From positions 124,001 to 188,000 of the forward strand of contig NZ_MRYI01000008.1 in NCBI RefSeq assembly GCF_002260525.1: a stretch of 64,000 bases of DNA. Direction: 5' to 3'. Within the stretch, counting starts at the first letter, position 1, and each line of letters begins with the position of its first letter. The notes beneath the pieces are model-generated. The model was not told the DNA's origin. It was given only the letters and a program-made list of their open reading frames with translations, and searched no databases. Below are positions 16,058 through 23,468 of this stretch, one piece after another. A program made the translations under genes and the position numbers. The stretch is from Hahella sp. CCB-MM4. Lineage in GTDB: Bacteria; Pseudomonadota; Gammaproteobacteria; Pseudomonadales; Oleiphilaceae.

Positions 16058-16193
16058 ATGGACGACATCCTGGGCTGAAAATCACCCATTCAGGTGAATT
16101 GCCGGCCAGACCCCTTTGATATAGTGCTCCCTGTGTTCGCTCGCAGTTACAGCGAAAAATCCTGACAACAAAAACAAGACTGGAGAGCACTTA

Positions 16194-17117
16194 ATGAAGA
16201 AGCTACTCACCGCAGTAGTCTCCTGCTGCCTGTTCCTTATTGGATCAGCAGCCATGGCAGACACGTACACCAAAACCAAATATCCAATTCTCCTTGTTCA
16301 TGGGGTAACCGGATTTGATTATCTGGGCGGCCTCATCGGCTATTTCCATACGATCCCGTATAACCTTTCCCGTTCCGGCGCGACTGTTGAAGTGGCGAAT
16401 GTCTCATTCGTCAACAGCAGTTGGGAGCGTGGCGTTCAGCTAAAGAACTACATCAACAGCCTGGGATATTCCAAAGTGAACATCATGGCCCATAGCCAGG
16501 GTGCGCCGACTTCACGAGTGGCGGTTCATCTCAATCCTTCAAAAGTGGCTTCTGTTACATCTATCGACGGTGTGAATCAGGGCTCGAAGGTTGCGGATGT
16601 CATTCGCGGGATTATCCCTCCGGGGTCCTATGTAGAAGGTGGTGCTGATGCCATTGCCGTCGCGCTTGGCGGCTTGGTGAATTTATTGTCCGGCAACAAC
16701 AACCCTCAGGACGGTATTGCAGCGCTGGAGACTTTGACCACTCAGGGAACCACGGACCTTAACTCAACTTTGGGGTGGAAAGGGGTCAGCCAGACCTACT
16801 GTGCCACCAAAGCCGAGGACGTCTGGTACGGTTCCAACAAGGTGAAATTCTTCTCCTGGACCGGGAGCAGTGTCGTAACCAATGTTCTGGATCTTTCTGA
16901 CGGATTCCTGGCGATAACCGGGCTGTCTTTTGGTTGGGAAGACAATGATGGTCTGGTGGCAAGCTGTGCGACCAAAATGGGGAATGTTATCGGTACCCAT
17001 TACTCCATGAACCACATTGATGCGATCAATCATTTGTTCGGCATCCGTTCGCTGTGGACCAATCCGGTATCACTTTACCGTAGCCAGGCCAACCGTCTGA
17101 AAAATAGAGGGTTGTAA
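16194..17117 (+). CDS. Secreted triacylglycerol lipase (family I), first copy
   Basis: This 307-residue lipase is of the Pseudomonas type. Residues 1-22 form a Sec signal peptide ending AMA. The mature part opens YTKTKYPILLVHG, the oxyanion-hole strand. The nucleophile elbow is AHSQG with Ser101; the family norm is GHSxG, so the first Gly is Ala here. Asp252 (NDG) and His274 (MNHID) complete the triad. Cys in QTYC and VASC match the conserved disulphide. CTGGAGAGC precedes ATG 16194. It is followed by its own foldase gene, as required for folding in the periplasm before type II secretion. Confidence 0.93.
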   Translation: MKKLLTAVVSCCLFLIGSAAMADTYTKTKYPILLVHGVTGFDYLGGLIGYFHTIPYNLSRSGATVEVANVSFVNSSWERGVQLKNYINSLGYSKVNIMAHSQGAPTSRVAVHLNPSKVASVTSIDGVNQGSKVADVIRGIIPPGSYVEGGADAIAVALGGLVNLLSGNNNPQDGIAALETLTTQGTTDLNSTLGWKGVSQTYCATKAEDVWYGSNKVKFFSWTGSSVVTNVLDLSDGFLAITGLSFGWEDNDGLVASCATKMGNVIGTHYSMNHIDAINHLFGIRSLWTNPVSLYRSQANRLKNRGL

Positions 17118-17189: not shown

Positions 17190-18323
17190 ATGCACAACGC
17201 TGTACGTCGCCACATGCCGGTCCAGGTGACCGTTATCGCAATCGCTGCTGTACTAATGATCATCGCCGGCTGGTTATGGTTCAACCGGACGCCAGGCCTC
17301 TTTCAGGAACCCTCTCGTCAGGTAACTGAAAGTACTACTCAAACTGCGCCGCATGCCCTGGAGCAGGCGGCTGAAAGTCATTCGGGGGGAGATGCTTCCA
17401 ACGTGCCGGGTGCGGTTCCTAACCTGTCAGGAGATAGCGCTAACCTGCCGGGAGCCACCCCAAAAAAGTACGATGGGGAGAAATTTGCGGCCAGTCTTGA
17501 AGGGACTGATATCGATGGCCAGCTCAAAGTGGATGAAACCGGAAAGCTGATCATTTCAATAGAAGTAAAAGACTTCTTTGATTATTTCCTCAACACGGTT
17601 GGCGAGGTGACACCCGAGCAGGCCCTGGCGGAAATAGAGCGCCTTGCCAGGACCAGCCTGCCACCGGCAGCAGCAGAGCAGGCTCTGGCAATGCTGGACC
17701 AGTACCTTGAATATAAGCAGGCTGCTTTACAGCTAATGCAACAACCTCTGCTGCCCGTTGACCAGCAAACCCCGGAATATCACCTGAGTGTGCTGACCCA
17801 ATCGCTTGAGCAGTTGAAGCAGATTCGCCGCCAGATAATGAATCAGGAGGTCGTCGATGCGTTTTTTGGCATGGAGGAAGCCTACGCTGACTATACTCTG
17901 ACCAAAATGGCGATTCAGCAGGATCCAAGTCTCAGCATGACTGAAAAACAACAGCTGCTGGCAGCTAAACGGCAACAGCTTCCGCAGGAACTCAAAGTCG
18001 TGGATGAGCAGCTGGAAAGCTCTGCTATCAGGGCGAGTCAGGCGACTGAGTTATTTCAGTCTGCGACCAGCGAGACGGCTTTGAGGCAAGGGCTGGCGGG
18101 ACTGAGCTATGAACCGCGCCAAATTGATGATTTGGTGGGGCAATGGCAGAGTCAGCGCCAGTTTGAAGATAAATATGCACAATACCTGTCGCAAAAAGAG
18201 CGGATACTGGCTGCGGGTCTGACTGCCGAGGATCAGGATAAGCAAGTAGTGCTGTTGCGGCAGCAATTTTTCACTGGGGAAGAAGAGCTGGTTCAGGCTC
18301 GTTTGCGGGATATGTCTTTATAG
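17190..18323 (+). CDS. Lipase-specific foldase (Lif), first copy
   Basis: This 377-residue membrane-anchored chaperone is of the LipB/LimA/Lif family. A cytoplasmic N-terminus is followed by one span (about residues 11-30, TVIAIAAVLMIIAGWLW). A variable Ser/Pro/Gly linker with short repeats (about 55-90) comes next, then the helical foldase domain. The signature motif appears as KDFFDYFLNTVGE, and GMEEAYADYTL also matches family helices. It wraps the lipase in the periplasm and is not secreted with it. AAAGGGGAG at 17177-17185 supports ATG 17190 over the longer frame from 17157. It is co-transcribed with the lipase. Confidence 0.93.
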   Translation: MHNAVRRHMPVQVTVIAIAAVLMIIAGWLWFNRTPGLFQEPSRQVTESTTQTAPHALEQAAESHSGGDASNVPGAVPNLSGDSANLPGATPKKYDGEKFAASLEGTDIDGQLKVDETGKLIISIEVKDFFDYFLNTVGEVTPEQALAEIERLARTSLPPAAAEQALAMLDQYLEYKQAALQLMQQPLLPVDQQTPEYHLSVLTQSLEQLKQIRRQIMNQEVVDAFFGMEEAYADYTLTKMAIQQDPSLSMTEKQQLLAAKRQQLPQELKVVDEQLESSAIRASQATELFQSATSETALRQGLAGLSYEPRQIDDLVGQWQSQRQFEDKYAQYLSQKERILAAGLTAEDQDKQVVLLRQQFFTGEEELVQARLRDMSL

Positions 18324-18601
18324 TCTGTGCCGTCTGTTTTGGACCCTGTTTCACGACTCTATTTCACCTTCTTGCCTTCATCTCTTCAAAATCATTCAGT
18401 AAGGCCTAGTCCCGGCTGATAACAGTCGGGTAATCGGCCATCATCCTTCGGCCGAAGAGCCACCCGGAATATCGTCCCTTAAGGCGATTTTAAGATCTAA
18501 CAGTTTTGTCATAATCACTCTATCGTTTGCCGCTCGCAGTATCAGCCGTGCATTCAAAATATTACGGAAAACTGACAAAGGAACGAGTCCGGAGAGCATT
18601 C

Positions 18602-19609
18602 ATGAATACCTTATTTACCGCCAATGTATTCAATAAACAACATAAAAAAACGTTAAACCCGGTGAGAAAGCCTGGCTTTCGTCGTTTTGCCAAGAAACTG
18701 CTGATTGTTTCTGCATCGTGCAGTCTGATGATGATGGGCGCCGCCCAGGCCGGAAGTTATACCAAAACAAAATATCCGATTCTTCTGGTCCACGGTTTTG
18801 CAGGTTTTGATAACCTCGGGGGATTGATCGGCTATTTCCATACGATTCCCTATAATCTCGCCCGCTCAGGTGCCACGGTGGAAGTCGCGAATGTTTCCTT
18901 TGTGCACAGCAGTTGGGACCGGGGCCAGCAGCTAGAGGAATATATCGACTGCCTGGGTTACCCCAAGGTCAACATCATGGCGCATGGTCAGGGGGCGCCG
19001 ACTGCCCGGGTGGCCACTCACTTCAATTCCTGCCATGTCGCGTCTGTCACATCAATTGATGGTATCAATAAGGGCTCTAAAGTCGCCGATATTGTCAGAG
19101 GTGTTATCCCCCCTGATACACCAATTGAAGGGGGTGTTGATGTCATTGCCCGGGCCGCCGGGAGTCTGGTGGATGTCATGGCCGGGAATAGCAATCCCCA
19201 GGACGGTATGCAGGCGCTGGATGCCATGACCTCTCCCGATATGCTGGAATTGAACAATGATCTCGAGTGGAGAGGCGTTAGCCCCGAAAACTGTGACAGC
19301 GGCGATGAAGAGGTCTGGTATGGCGACGATCTGGTGAAACTGTATTCCTGGAGCGGCCGTAGTCCTGTGACTAATCTGCTTGATCCCTCGGATGCCTTTC
19401 TGGGAGTGACATCACTGGTGTTTGGCCATGAGCGGAACGATGGGTTTGTCTCAAGTTGCTCCAGCAAGCTGGGCAAGGTCATTGGAACCCACTATTCCAT
19501 GAATCACCTGGATGCCATCAATCATCTGTTTGCGGTGCGTTCTTTGTGGACCAATCCGGTATCGCTTTACCGAAGCCAGGCTAACCGGCTGAAGAAAGAA
19601 GGCTTATAA
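18602..19609 (+). CDS. Lipase paralogue lacking the catalytic serine (second copy)
   Basis: The 335-residue protein is very similar to the first lipase over its whole mature length. The nucleophile elbow reads AHGQG: codon GGT at 18986-18988 encodes Gly129 where the first copy has Ser101. Asp280 (NDG) and His302 (MNHLD) are kept, as are the two disulphide Cys; two extra Cys appear (DCLG, NSCH). The signal region is long (about 50 residues) with FRRFAKK before the hydrophobic core. GGAGAG at 18591-18596 fixes ATG 18602. It should be unable to hydrolyse esters by the normal mechanism, yet the frame is intact and its own foldase follows. Confidence 0.92.
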   Translation: MNTLFTANVFNKQHKKTLNPVRKPGFRRFAKKLLIVSASCSLMMMGAAQAGSYTKTKYPILLVHGFAGFDNLGGLIGYFHTIPYNLARSGATVEVANVSFVHSSWDRGQQLEEYIDCLGYPKVNIMAHGQGAPTARVATHFNSCHVASVTSIDGINKGSKVADIVRGVIPPDTPIEGGVDVIARAAGSLVDVMAGNSNPQDGMQALDAMTSPDMLELNNDLEWRGVSPENCDSGDEEVWYGDDLVKLYSWSGRSPVTNLLDPSDAFLGVTSLVFGHERNDGFVSSCSSKLGKVIGTHYSMNHLDAINHLFAVRSLWTNPVSLYRSQANRLKKEGL

Positions 19610-19687
19610 GATCCGTGTTGGACGTTGTCTCATCACCATTGCGCGGGTTGCTGACTTATGATCAGTAGCCCGCCAGGAAGGACCCGA

Positions 19688-20809
19688 ATGAAGATAAAAA
19701 TCAGAGACCAGTATCTGTTTCCCTTGTCTGTCGTCATCACGGCCATATCCCTGGCGTTAACTGCCGCCTGGTTATGGCAAAGTGAACCGTACAAAGCCAA
19801 ACCCGATGTTGAAACGGTATCTCTGGAGACAGCACTTGAAGACCCCTGGGTTGCACCGCAGGGGCCGCTAGGCATTACCAACACCGAAGAGGCGGCCACA
19901 CTGGATGACGAATCGGTGAGGCAGGATGAAACCACTTGGGTGACCCCAAAACAATATGACGGTGCCGCTTTTGCTGCCAGTCTGGCCGGCACGGATATCG
20001 ATGGCGAACTGCGGGCGGATGAATCCGGCCATCTGATAGTGAGCGTTGCAGTCAAAGATTTCTTTGATTATTTCTTCAATACGGTGGGAGAGGTTCCTCC
20101 TGAGAAAGCGCTGGCGGAAATTGAACGTTTGGCCCGCAGTAGCTTGCCCCCGGCAGCCGCGGATGAAGCCATGGCGTTAATGGACCAGTATCTTGAGTAT
20201 AAGCAACTGGCATTGGATCTGATGCAGGAGCCGTTACTACCGGTTGATCAGCAGACCCCTGAGTACCATTTGAAAGTGTTGCGAGGGTCACTGACCCGGC
20301 TGAAACAGATTCGCCGTGAGGTCATGAACGAGGATACCGTCCAGGCATTTTTCGGCATGGAAGAGGCCTATGCGGATTACACGCTGGATAAAATGTCGAT
20401 TCAGCAGGACAAGGAGCTCAGTCCCGATAAAAAGCAGCAGTTGATTGTAGAGAGACGTCGCCACTTGCCACAGGAGCTTCGGACGGTGGACGAGCAGCTG
20501 GAGCGTTCGGCCATACGGGCTCAGCAGGCTGCAGCGCTGTTGCAGAATGCAGCCAGTGAGGAGGATATTCGAAGCGGGTTAGGAAATCTCGGTTATCCCG
20601 CAGAGGAAATTGATCAGATCGCGAAGAACTGGGAAGCGCGGAGGAAGTTCGATTTGAGATATGCGCAATATCAGGTACAGCGGGACCAGATACTCGAGGC
20701 AGGTCTCAGTGAAGAAGATCAGCAAAGGCAATTGGAGTCGTTAAGGGCGGAGTATTTTACCGATGAAAGAGAACGGCTCAAAGCGCGCTTGAGAGATCGT
20801 ACTTCTTAG
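19688..20809 (+). CDS. Lipase-specific foldase (Lif), second copy
   Basis: This 373-residue paralogue of the first foldase has an N-terminal span (about residues 10-30, FPLSVVITAISLALTAAWLW), an acidic linker, and the foldase domain with KDFFDYFFNTVGE. Shared stretches such as LPVDQQTPEYHLKVL, FGMEEAYADYTLDKM and LPQEL show it arose by duplication with the lipase as a pair. AGGAAGG at 19675-19681 supports ATG 19688 rather than ATG 19658. It presumably folds the Ser-less lipase; cross-folding of the first lipase is possible. Confidence 0.93.
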   Translation: MKIKIRDQYLFPLSVVITAISLALTAAWLWQSEPYKAKPDVETVSLETALEDPWVAPQGPLGITNTEEAATLDDESVRQDETTWVTPKQYDGAAFAASLAGTDIDGELRADESGHLIVSVAVKDFFDYFFNTVGEVPPEKALAEIERLARSSLPPAAADEAMALMDQYLEYKQLALDLMQEPLLPVDQQTPEYHLKVLRGSLTRLKQIRREVMNEDTVQAFFGMEEAYADYTLDKMSIQQDKELSPDKKQQLIVERRRHLPQELRTVDEQLERSAIRAQQAAALLQNAASEEDIRSGLGNLGYPAEEIDQIAKNWEARRKFDLRYAQYQVQRDQILEAGLSEEDQQRQLESLRAEYFTDERERLKARLRDRTS

Positions 20810-20910: not shown

Positions 20911-20957
20911 TGAGCTAAATGGCTGAGTGTTATCATATCGGCTCTGCTGGAGTTGAT

Positions 20958-22727
20958 ATGAACGAACAATTAATAATAAATGCCAGTCGAGCCGGTTACT
21001 ACAATCTGAATTTTGAACCTGAACTGGAGCGGCTGTTTGAAACGTTCCAGTTTAAGCGTATCAGACGCAGGCTGGGCGTTGTGAACTTGGTCGCGCTGGT
21101 TTTCTTCGTTATCTATTCACTGGTGGATTACCTCATATTTCCGTTTGAGGTGGCGAGCTGGACGATTCCCATACGCCTGTTTCTGGTGGCCCCGGTCATT
21201 GTGATCTCTACCATCATTAACTGCAGAACCCGGTCACCCCGACTTTTCTTTTTTGTATACATGGCCAGTTACTTTGTGTGTGGCATGGCAGTGGTTGCGA
21301 TTATCTGGATTGCCCATTCCAACAATGTGATGGTGCCCTACGACGGCCTGTTTCTCGTTCTGAGCTATGGCTATTTCGTCATGTCCATTCCATTCCGCCA
21401 TGCCCTGGTACCTTCCTGGCTGATTTTTGCTTTTTATGCCGTGGCGGAAGTCATGGCTGACATGCCGCCGGATAAGCTTTATCTGAATATGTTTTTTCTG
21501 GCCGGTGCCAATCTGATTGGTTCTGTCGGTTCCTACATTCAGGAACACAATCTCCGTAGCAGTTTCCTGAACCAGCAGCTATTGCATATTCGTCAGGCAG
21601 AAGCTGACAGGGAAAACAAAGCCAAGACCCGATTTATTGCCACCGCCAGCCATGATTTGCGGCAGCCGTTGAATGCCATGAATCTGCTGTTGGAAGGAAT
21701 GCCGAAACCGGCACCGGGTGATACTGAAACTTCGGAAGTTCAACAAAAACTGAAAAGATCCCTGGACCAATTGAATGGTCTATTGGGTACCTTGCTGGAC
21801 ATATCCCGTTTGAACCTGGGGGTGATCAAGCCGCACTGCAGTGCATTTGACCTTCACGATCTGGTAGAGCGTATTATCGAAGAGCAGGTTAAGGCGGATG
21901 ACGCCAGCCCCGCAATGCTCAATTCAATACCTGAAGGGACGGGAATCTACTCAGACCCGATTCTGATCGAGCGCATTCTTCGCAATCTGCTGTCCAATAG
22001 TCTGAAGCATGCGGAGGCCGACAACGTGGTAATAGACGCTGAAATTTCAGAGGAGTGGGTGACGCTGGTGTTCAGGGATGACGGACGGGGGATTCCAAAA
22101 GAGCATCAGGAAAAGGTGTTTCAGGAATTTCAGCAGGTTCGCCGAAATAATGGGCGACCTCCCAATGGCCTGGGATTGGGACTGGCAATTGTTCAACAGC
22201 TTTCTGAGCTGATGGACATTTCTTTGCAATTGGAGAGTGACGAAGGAGCAGGGACGGTATTTCGCCTGACGATACCCGCCTCAGATCCCGTACTGCCATC
22301 AGCCCAGGAAAGCGCCGCAGGAGGTATGCATCAGGTACTTTCCGGTGTGCGGATTTGGCTGGTGGAAGATGACGAGACCAACAGAGAAGCGCTGACCGCT
22401 TTTGTCACTCAATGCGGGGCAGAGGTGGTGTCTCTGGCCGGGTACGGAGAGTTTGTCGCACAGCTTGATGGATTGAATGATGCTTCCACACCGGACCTGA
22501 TGTTGACTGACTACCGACTGGGGCACAGTAAAACCGGCCTCAGCGTGGTGAAATTGATACGCAAGCTGGCGGACCGGTTTGTCCCCGCGATAATCCTGTC
22601 GGCCGATGTGGAAAAGGTGCGAGATCTTTCGGATGATCGGCCGGACATTGTATTTCTCACCAAGCCCGTGACGCCTGCCAGGCTGTTAAGCGCTATTCGC
22701 AGTCAGCTCAGTCAGCCGGTTGCATGA
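20958..22727 (+). CDS. Membrane hybrid sensor histidine kinase with C-terminal receiver
   Basis: The 589-residue protein has about six membrane helices (roughly residues 45-200). A HisKA segment carries the phospho-acceptor His in FIATASHDLRQPLNAMNLL. The ATPase domain has N-box NLLSNSLKHAE, DDGRGIP and GLGLGLAIV. The receiver (about 460-580) has VEDDE, phospho-acceptor Asp in LMLTDYRLG and Lys in FLTKP. The membrane input domain is not recognised. GGAG at 20949-20952 supports ATG 20958 over ATG 20919. A LuxR-type regulator lies immediately downstream in convergent orientation and is the likely partner. Confidence 0.92.
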   Translation: MNEQLIINASRAGYYNLNFEPELERLFETFQFKRIRRRLGVVNLVALVFFVIYSLVDYLIFPFEVASWTIPIRLFLVAPVIVISTIINCRTRSPRLFFFVYMASYFVCGMAVVAIIWIAHSNNVMVPYDGLFLVLSYGYFVMSIPFRHALVPSWLIFAFYAVAEVMADMPPDKLYLNMFFLAGANLIGSVGSYIQEHNLRSSFLNQQLLHIRQAEADRENKAKTRFIATASHDLRQPLNAMNLLLEGMPKPAPGDTETSEVQQKLKRSLDQLNGLLGTLLDISRLNLGVIKPHCSAFDLHDLVERIIEEQVKADDASPAMLNSIPEGTGIYSDPILIERILRNLLSNSLKHAEADNVVIDAEISEEWVTLVFRDDGRGIPKEHQEKVFQEFQQVRRNNGRPPNGLGLGLAIVQQLSELMDISLQLESDEGAGTVFRLTIPASDPVLPSAQESAAGGMHQVLSGVRIWLVEDDETNREALTAFVTQCGAEVVSLAGYGEFVAQLDGLNDASTPDLMLTDYRLGHSKTGLSVVKLIRKLADRFVPAIILSADVEKVRDLSDDRPDIVFLTKPVTPARLLSAIRSQLSQPVA

Positions 22728-22796: not shown

Positions 22797-23468
22797 TCAG
22801 TCGATCAGATTCCATTTCTCGGCGACCCTGACACACTCTGTCCGGTTATGAACATTCAGATGCATGAACAGGGATTTCAGGTGTGTCTTGACCGTGTCTT
22901 CTGTGAGCTGCAATTTCGTACAGATCTTTTTGTTCGGCAATCCCTGGGCCAGTAGCTGAAGCACTTCCATTTGACGGGGCGTGATGGCCTGAATATCCAC
23001 CTGCAGATCAACAGGCCGACGACGACGGTATCTCGGATAGAAATCCGGCAGTACCATTTTTCCTTCCAGAATGGCCGAGATATCCTGATATATATTGCTT
23101 CCGCTGCTGGACTTGCTGATATAACCGCAAGCGCCGCTGGCCAGTGCAAGATCCACGTCTTCGGGGTCTTCAGACCCGGATAAGATGGCCACCGGGATGA
23201 GCACGCGAAGCTCCGAAAGTTTGCGAAGAAAGCGAAGCCCTTTACTGTCAGGCAGCGATAGATCCAACAGAATCAGGTCAAAGTTTTGGTCTTTGCTAAG
23301 AATTTCTGCGGCGGCGGTGCAGTTCAGTGCGATTTCCATATCCAAATGGAGATTTTGTTGGCGTAGTGAGGCGCGAAGGCCTTCGGCAACCAATTGATGG
23401 TCGTCGATAATCAATACACGCAGGTGCTCTGAAATACCCAATGCCTGAGGTTGGGGTGCCAGATTCAT
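22797..23468 (-). CDS. LuxR/NarL-family response regulator
   Basis: This 223-residue regulator has a receiver domain (about residues 15-135) with acidic pair IIDDH, phospho-acceptor Asp in LILLDLSLPD and Lys in YISKS. The C-terminal LuxR helix-turn-helix (about 158-220) reads ITPRQMEVLQLLAQGLPNKK then TEDTVKTHLKSLF. GGAGAGAATC precedes ATG 23468. It faces the hybrid kinase gene 3' end to 3' end, separated by repeats, and is its probable output. Target genes are unknown. Confidence 0.93.
   Translation of the reverse strand: MNLAPQPQALGISEHLRVLIIDDHQLVAEGLRASLRQQNLHLDMEIALNCTAAAEILSKDQNFDLILLDLSLPDSKGLRFLRKLSELRVLIPVAILSGSEDPEDVDLALASGACGYISKSSSGSNIYQDISAILEGKMVLPDFYPRYRRRRPVDLQVDIQAITPRQMEVLQLLAQGLPNKKICTKLQLTEDTVKTHLKSLFMHLNVHNRTECVRVAEKWNLID

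Follow-up and report, generated by a model that had tools for sequence, protein, structure and literature searches.

A lipase paralogue lacking the catalytic serine is maintained with its own foldase in two Hahella species

The foldase-dependent lipases secreted by Pseudomonas and Burkholderia make up families I.1 and I.2. Lipase folds that have left catalysis behind are familiar from insect yolk proteins that belong to the lipase family, in which the active-site Ser is absent and the fold has been turned to binding or storage; these are eukaryotic, remote in sequence from the bacterial protein considered here and not known to have a foldase. Nor is a dedicated folding chaperone known for the inactive GH28 pectinases of beetles. 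The beetle proteins belong to another fold and another kingdom, but they offer a parallel in that inactive paralogues are kept beside active copies, and the study reports that they matter for the same digestive pathway as the active copies (PMC6549527). In the bacterial systems, Lif foldases are described as enabling the lipase to cross an energy barrier and reach its active state (PMC13381987, PMC7046727).

The locus described here lies in a 64,000-nucleotide stretch of the genome of Hahella sp. CCB-MM4, hereafter the window, and is a tandem duplication in the order lip1-lif1-lip2-lif2 with all four genes in the same direction. Its features are as follows.

16139-16153, + strand: leader element GCTCGCAGTTACAGC 5' of lip1, a conserved pattern in the leaders
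16194-17117, + strand: lip1, active-type lipase of 307 aa with Asp and His present; Ser101 codon AGC at 16494-16496
17190-18323, + strand: lif1, foldase 3' of lip1, from ATG 17190 (TTG 17157 also open)
18532-18546, + strand: leader element GCTCGCAGTATCAGC 5' of lip2, a conserved pattern in the leaders
18602-19609, + strand: lip2, lipase paralogue without the nucleophile, 335 aa from ATG 18602 (a longer TTG start at 18527 also open)
18986-18988, + strand: codon GGT for Gly129 of lip2, replacing the nucleophile Ser
19688-20809, + strand: lif2, foldase 3' of lip2, from ATG 19688 (ATG 19658 also open)
20919-22727, + strand: hybrid histidine kinase, multi-pass, named by eye
22797-23468, - strand: response regulator, LuxR/NarL-like by eye, present in H. 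ganghwensis too

The lip2 product resembles the secreted lipases of Pseudomonas and Burkholderia (LipA-LipH/Lif) in sequence, predicted fold, the Asp and His of the triad and the old cysteine pair, and shares with them a foldase gene directly downstream. It differs from them in having Gly for Ser, an extra cysteine pair, an acidic character relative to its sister copy and a tandem arrangement with an active-type copy. Among the literature matches listed, which comprised titles and the starts of abstracts with subscription papers mostly outside, none reported a lipase that lacks the nucleophile and has a foldase dedicated to it. The genome also carries a third, remote lipase-foldase pair on contig 67 (about 142968-145265; L003, L007 and L188), whose lipase, matched in two pieces, has the nucleophile Ser in AHSQGALASR, and which has a counterpart in H. 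ganghwensis (L020, L189).

A preliminary description of this DNA had proposed that lip2 is a dead lipase with an intact frame, carrying Gly129 in place of the Ser101 of lip1 and retaining Asp280, His302 and the disulphide Cys. The sequence features were all borne out: the codons are AGC and GGT, the nucleophile elbow reads NIMAHSQGAPT in lip1 and NIMAHGQGAPT in lip2, and an alignment of lip2 with the P. aeruginosa lipase 1ex9 (E 1e-59) placed Gly129, Asp280 and His302 on Ser82, Asp229 and His251. The old cysteine pair is likewise present as residues, Cys231 and Cys286 aligning with Cys183 and Cys235 of 1ex9, which I take to be the lipase disulphide. The catalytic triad of the P. aeruginosa enzyme is given as S82, H251 and D229 (PMC7046727).

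H. ganghwensis has the gene order lip1-lif1-lip2-lif2-kinase, with Ser in lip1 and Gly in lip2 (L022); its lip2 frame is intact, keeps Asp and His and uses the same GGT codon. It is the one relative of copy two that was available for comparing codon 129, and since it has the identical Gly, a strain mutation or sequencing error, which the preliminary description had considered, does not account for Gly129. Within the group of the window, seven genomes of one genus, all seven carry a lipase match, and lip1 and lip2 are both present only in the window's genome and in G002, which was taken as H. ganghwensis DSM 17046 because its locus L008 and L022 share one lip2 protein. Each of the remaining five genomes has a single close copy, and it carries Ser.

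The enlarged set of matches listed comprised 183 loci, which gave 169 distinct lipase-like proteins when compared over their last 250 residues. At the nucleophile column, 164 of these matches had Ser, two had Gly (both lip2) and three were without that part of the protein. Ser/Asp/His was complete in 157 and seven had Ser with the later columns empty, while the combination Gly/Asp/His occurred in the two lip2 orthologues alone, among the matches listed. Ser was also found in 92/92 other rows of the lipase alignment, as against Gly in the two lip2; that comparison left out L076 and L114 (the most distant rows, both with Ser), the cut or broken frames L025/L113 and L110-L112, and rows weaker than E 1e-58. 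The three proteins without the nucleophile part come from L110 (G092), L111 (G053) and L112 (G074), where the lipase frames are broken or short; the adjoining foldases measure 178, 340 and 368 aa, respectively, and the long frames in L111 and L112 suggest that a foldase may persist for a while once its client lipase has broken down. A degenerate DNA pattern for the Gly elbow, N-x-x-(A/G)-H-G-(Q/H)-G, matched 4/369 class-wide genomes including that of the window, which says little because a reversed control also matched four; the pattern matches L120, L121 and L123 were absent from the lipase matches. Lip2 was found in two species only, among the matches listed, so that its conservation is judged throughout from two orthologues.

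Selection on these two orthologues was compared with that on lip1. Between the species, 29/283 mature residues differ in lip2 and 27/283 in lip1. NG86 dN/dS, computed pairwise across the entire frames, was 0.035 for lip2 and 0.021 for lip1, at a dS near 3, which is saturated, as synonymous sites were among all pairs. A codon branch model on nine sequences, subject to the same saturation of synonymous sites, gave an omega of 0.024 on the crowns of both lip1 and lip2; setting the two equal carried no likelihood cost (lnL -5727.58 either way), while fixing omega at 1 on the lip2 crown lowered lnL to -5912.13, a cost of 184.55 log units, so that neutrality was rejected. The comparison of dN/dS between the copies, proposed in the preliminary description as a check for relaxed selection on copy two, thus found purifying selection on both and lip2 indistinguishable from lip1, and for the crown branches relaxed selection on lip2 was rejected. 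An episode of positive selection along the lip2 stem was also considered and set aside: omega ran to its upper bound of 20.1, yet a model that gave the lip2 stem the background omega (lnL -5736.21) shifted the excess onto the lip1 stem, and the saturation of synonymous sites makes the stem omega uninterpretable.

These results bear on whether lip2 could be an early decaying pseudogene or a sequencing error. A lost nucleophile and an accelerated stem (see below) are what such an origin would produce, but the identical Gly is found in a second species so distant that synonymous sites are saturated, the crown omega is 0.024, and the frames of lip2 and lif2 are intact in both species; I regard this explanation as extremely improbable. 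The sequences instead make a strong case, from two species, that lip2 has lost its nucleophile and has been maintained all the same. Since selection holds lip2 about as tightly as lip1, the protein probably does a useful job in the two Hahella other than ordinary fat cutting.

The history of the duplication was followed in a lipase tree of 96 rows and a foldase tree of 92 rows, the latter built by a quick method and accompanied by long-branch warnings. In the lipase tree, the four Hahella genes form a clade (support 100/97) with a lip2 pair (100/100) and a lip1 pair (99/90). The lip2 stem measures 0.48 changes per site and the lip1 stem 0.061, about an eightfold difference, while the tips are alike (0.076/0.052 and 0.066/0.046). 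The foldase tree has the same shape with near-equal stems, 0.24 for lif2 (support 97) and 0.20 for lif1 (support 94, below the 95 mark). Relative-rate counts agreed: with sites polarised by a majority among five outgroups, lip2 carried 29 fixed changes and lip1 three, with 17 undecided (p 2.6e-06; single outgroups, p 6.9e-08 to 0.0021), while the foldases showed four and one fixed changes with three undecided (p 0.38; single outgroups, p 0.18 to 1, from few polarised sites, 5 to 12 each). From the trees and these counts, the lipase-foldase operon was most likely duplicated as one unit, after which the lipase of copy two changed more clearly than its foldase. Gene conversion between the copies left no clear signal, the fraction of shared codons at identical residues being 0.45-0.49 in all six pairs. 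As a side observation, the foldases are 63% and 60% identical between the species, as against 90% and 83% for their lipase clients.

The changes in lip2 were then placed along the protein. Fixed differences between the lip1 pair and the lip2 pair number 53 and are spread along its length. Among 102 columns conserved to at least 95% in 68 close lipases, there is a fixed departure in seven for lip2 and one for lip1, and a further four vary between the two lip2 and one between the two lip1; with fixed departures in only 7/102 columns, most conserved lipase residues have stayed in lip2. The sharpest change is Ser129Gly. Others at nearly invariant sites are Gly213Asp, Gly311 to Ala or Ser, and Asn332Lys, and at position 242 lip2 has Asp where most relatives have Gly and lip1 has Ser or Ala. 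Val66Phe and Thr67Ala are fixed at the HGx position, beside the oxyanion position; I take the HGx position to be the first oxyanion residue, homologous to Met16. Two new cysteines, 117 and 144, are found in lip2 of both species. In the modelled secondary structure, Cys117 closes the helix that precedes the nucleophile strand, and Cys144 lies between the helix after that strand and the strand that comes next. By that model they would lie at an edge away from the nucleophile elbow, and they may form a disulphide with each other.

Could lip2 still be a catalyst of another kind? His and Asp might activate water or another group, or the protein might carry out a slow or different serine-free chemistry, and such altered catalysis would fit both the presence of Asp280 and His302 in the two species and the fixation of Val66Phe and Thr67Ala beside the oxyanion position. 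The kept Asp and His are weak evidence, however: lip1 and lip2 of the window differ at 89/283 mature residues, and at such divergence two given residues can stay by luck, which makes their retention uninformative. Phe66 and Ala67 also occur in a few Ser-type relatives (1/68 and 3/68, respectively), the elbow offers no replacement nucleophile, and the new cysteines appear, on the modelled secondary structure, to be away from it. Altered catalysis is consequently an improbable explanation.

Twelve acidic gains are common to lip2 of both species, eight of them within 213-243, and the mature pI is 5.4 and 5.9 for the two lip2 as against 8.5 and 9.0 for the two lip1. The net charges of the two lip2 are -10 and -7 with a median of +2 among the 77 rows counted, six of which range from -11 to -19, so that acidity as such is not unique to lip2. 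That the gains lie mainly in one stretch may reflect contact with a new protein partner and not lipid binding. P. aeruginosa LipA binds the polyanionic alginate electrostatically, using positively charged residues that lie opposite its catalytic centre (PMC3733896); the charge flip should thus alter what lip2 sticks to, and an acidic lip2 should behave unlike the alginate-binding LipA, which leaves room for a non-lipid role. Lip2 could accordingly be a secreted, non-enzymatic protein whose role lies off the lipid pocket, as a surface or matrix protein, a partner or an antagonist acting through the acidic stretch and the cysteines. The shift from basic to acidic relative to the sister copy in both species, the clustering of the gains and the presence of cysteines 117 and 144 in both species all speak for this, but 95/102 conserved columns are without a fixed departure (four of them vary within lip2), which is more than a scaffold seems to need, and the wider family has other acidic members. 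I consider a role off the pocket rather unlikely.

The preliminary description had also held that an intact foldase gene was duplicated alongside lip2, and this was upheld by the open frames of lif1 and lif2, by the shape of the foldase tree and by the Pfam Lipase_chap family (PF03280), which lif2 matches with 110.9 bits and lif1 with 104.8 bits against a cut-off of 25.7. The NCBIfam lipase secretion chaperone equivalog, the best model, scored 194.1 bits for lif1 and 191.1 bits for lif2, both below its cut-off of 285; as both copies fall short alike, this does not single out lif2. The Lif motif is RXXFDY(F/C)L(S/T)A according to PMC7046727, and the corresponding region, located by eye in both species, reads KDFFDYFLNT in lif1 and KDFFDYFFNT in lif2. 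Both copies keep the FDYF core and differ in its flanks, with the change of L to F confined to lif2. According to the same source, neither the B. glumae foldase nor that of P. aeruginosa activates the lipase of the other species (PMC7046727), which makes a dedicated partner for the diverged lip2 reasonable.

The foldases also bear on the proposal that lip2 is a foldase decoy or regulator, which would occupy Lif1 or Lif2 and so tune the maturation of lip1. Binding between a foldase and its lipase is tight, with a KD of 29 nM (PMC7046727), and a client that stays bound could act as a sink. Against this, lip2 came with a foldase of its own that has itself been kept, the foldases show no clear asymmetry after the duplication (at few informative sites and low power), and lip2 retains by eye a signal peptide to about residue 50, ahead of a mature part of about 285 aa, while its 12 acidic gains and two new cysteines would be needless for a decoy. 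I judge the decoy to be distinctly improbable. Of the pseudo-lipase maintained with a dedicated chaperone that the preliminary description had envisaged, the core thus stands, namely a lost nucleophile in an intact, constrained gene that has kept its own foldase, while the decoy role suggested for it is disfavoured.

AF2 predicted a lipase fold for lip2 with a pLDDT of 83.8 and a pTM of 0.87, similar to lip1 (84.5 and 0.87), and over five models the pLDDT ranged down to 72.7 for lip2 and 74.7 for lip1, the agreement among the lip2 models being slightly lower. Confidence fell below 50 at mature residues 20-25 of lip2, near the oxyanion flap, where lip1 has no such stretch; at 201-230, lip1 was predicted less surely than lip2. 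The best Foldseek match of the lip2 model was again the P. aeruginosa lipase 1ex9 (TM 0.93). The genome encodes a GspD-type secretin (566.9 bits, cut-off 351.35).

With respect to regulation, both species carry GCTCGYAGTWWCAGC in the lip1 leader as well as in the lip2 leader, which fits co-expression. Across the seven genus genomes there were 25 sites with at most one mismatch, and the sites without mismatch were the four tandem lipase leaders only; as the pattern was written from these four sites, the count expresses conservation and is not an independent test. One-mismatch sites elsewhere numbered 21, compared with 20 for a reversed control. A sigma-70 promoter scan returned two sites, both on the other strand, where 4.3 were expected. 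The neighbouring histidine kinase is possibly a lipase regulator. A special pairing of this kinase with lip2 is not favoured, since a relative of the kinase (34% identity; L023 8013-9410) follows the single Ser-type lipase-foldase pair of a gammaproteobacterial MAG.

The explanation that I favour, at a probability of roughly 0.45, is that lip2 is a foldase-matured, secreted pseudo-lipase that binds lipid esters and helps lip1. On this account, the lipase-foldase operon would have been duplicated in tandem in an ancestor of the window's species and H. ganghwensis; copy two would have lost its catalytic serine and then passed through a burst of change that brought the acidic stretch, the extra cysteine pair and the altered first oxyanion position, and purifying selection would since have constrained it just as strictly as the enzyme lip1. 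Lip2 would enter the periplasm by Sec, be folded by Lif2 as a membrane-anchored steric chaperone, as co-duplication and family membership suggest, and leave by type II secretion, for which the genomic GspD is a candidate component. Outside the cell it may open its lid at a lipid surface and bind an acyl ester or fatty acid without hydrolysing it in the ordinary way; by binding lipid it would assist lip1 as an interface conditioner, a product carrier or a colipase-like partner. The retention of most conserved lipase residues and the predicted lipase fold speak for this account, while the changes at Gly213, Gly311 and Asn332, the four conserved columns that vary between the two lip2 and the lower agreement of the lip2 models count against it. 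The more specific proposal, that the foldase has been kept to mature a secreted pseudo-lipase which serves the neighbouring active enzyme as a bacterial colipase or lipid carrier, is more speculative, and I hold it to be doubtful.

The lip2-lif2 pair, in which a client lacking the nucleophile has retained a foldase of its own, sets folding and secretion apart from catalysis. It offers a natural test of what a secreted lipase fold can do beyond catalysis, be it binding to an interface, carriage of products or binding of a partner. If the colipase or lipid-carrier proposal is true, lip1 and lip2 would together constitute a two-protein extracellular fat-handling system derived from one operon duplication.
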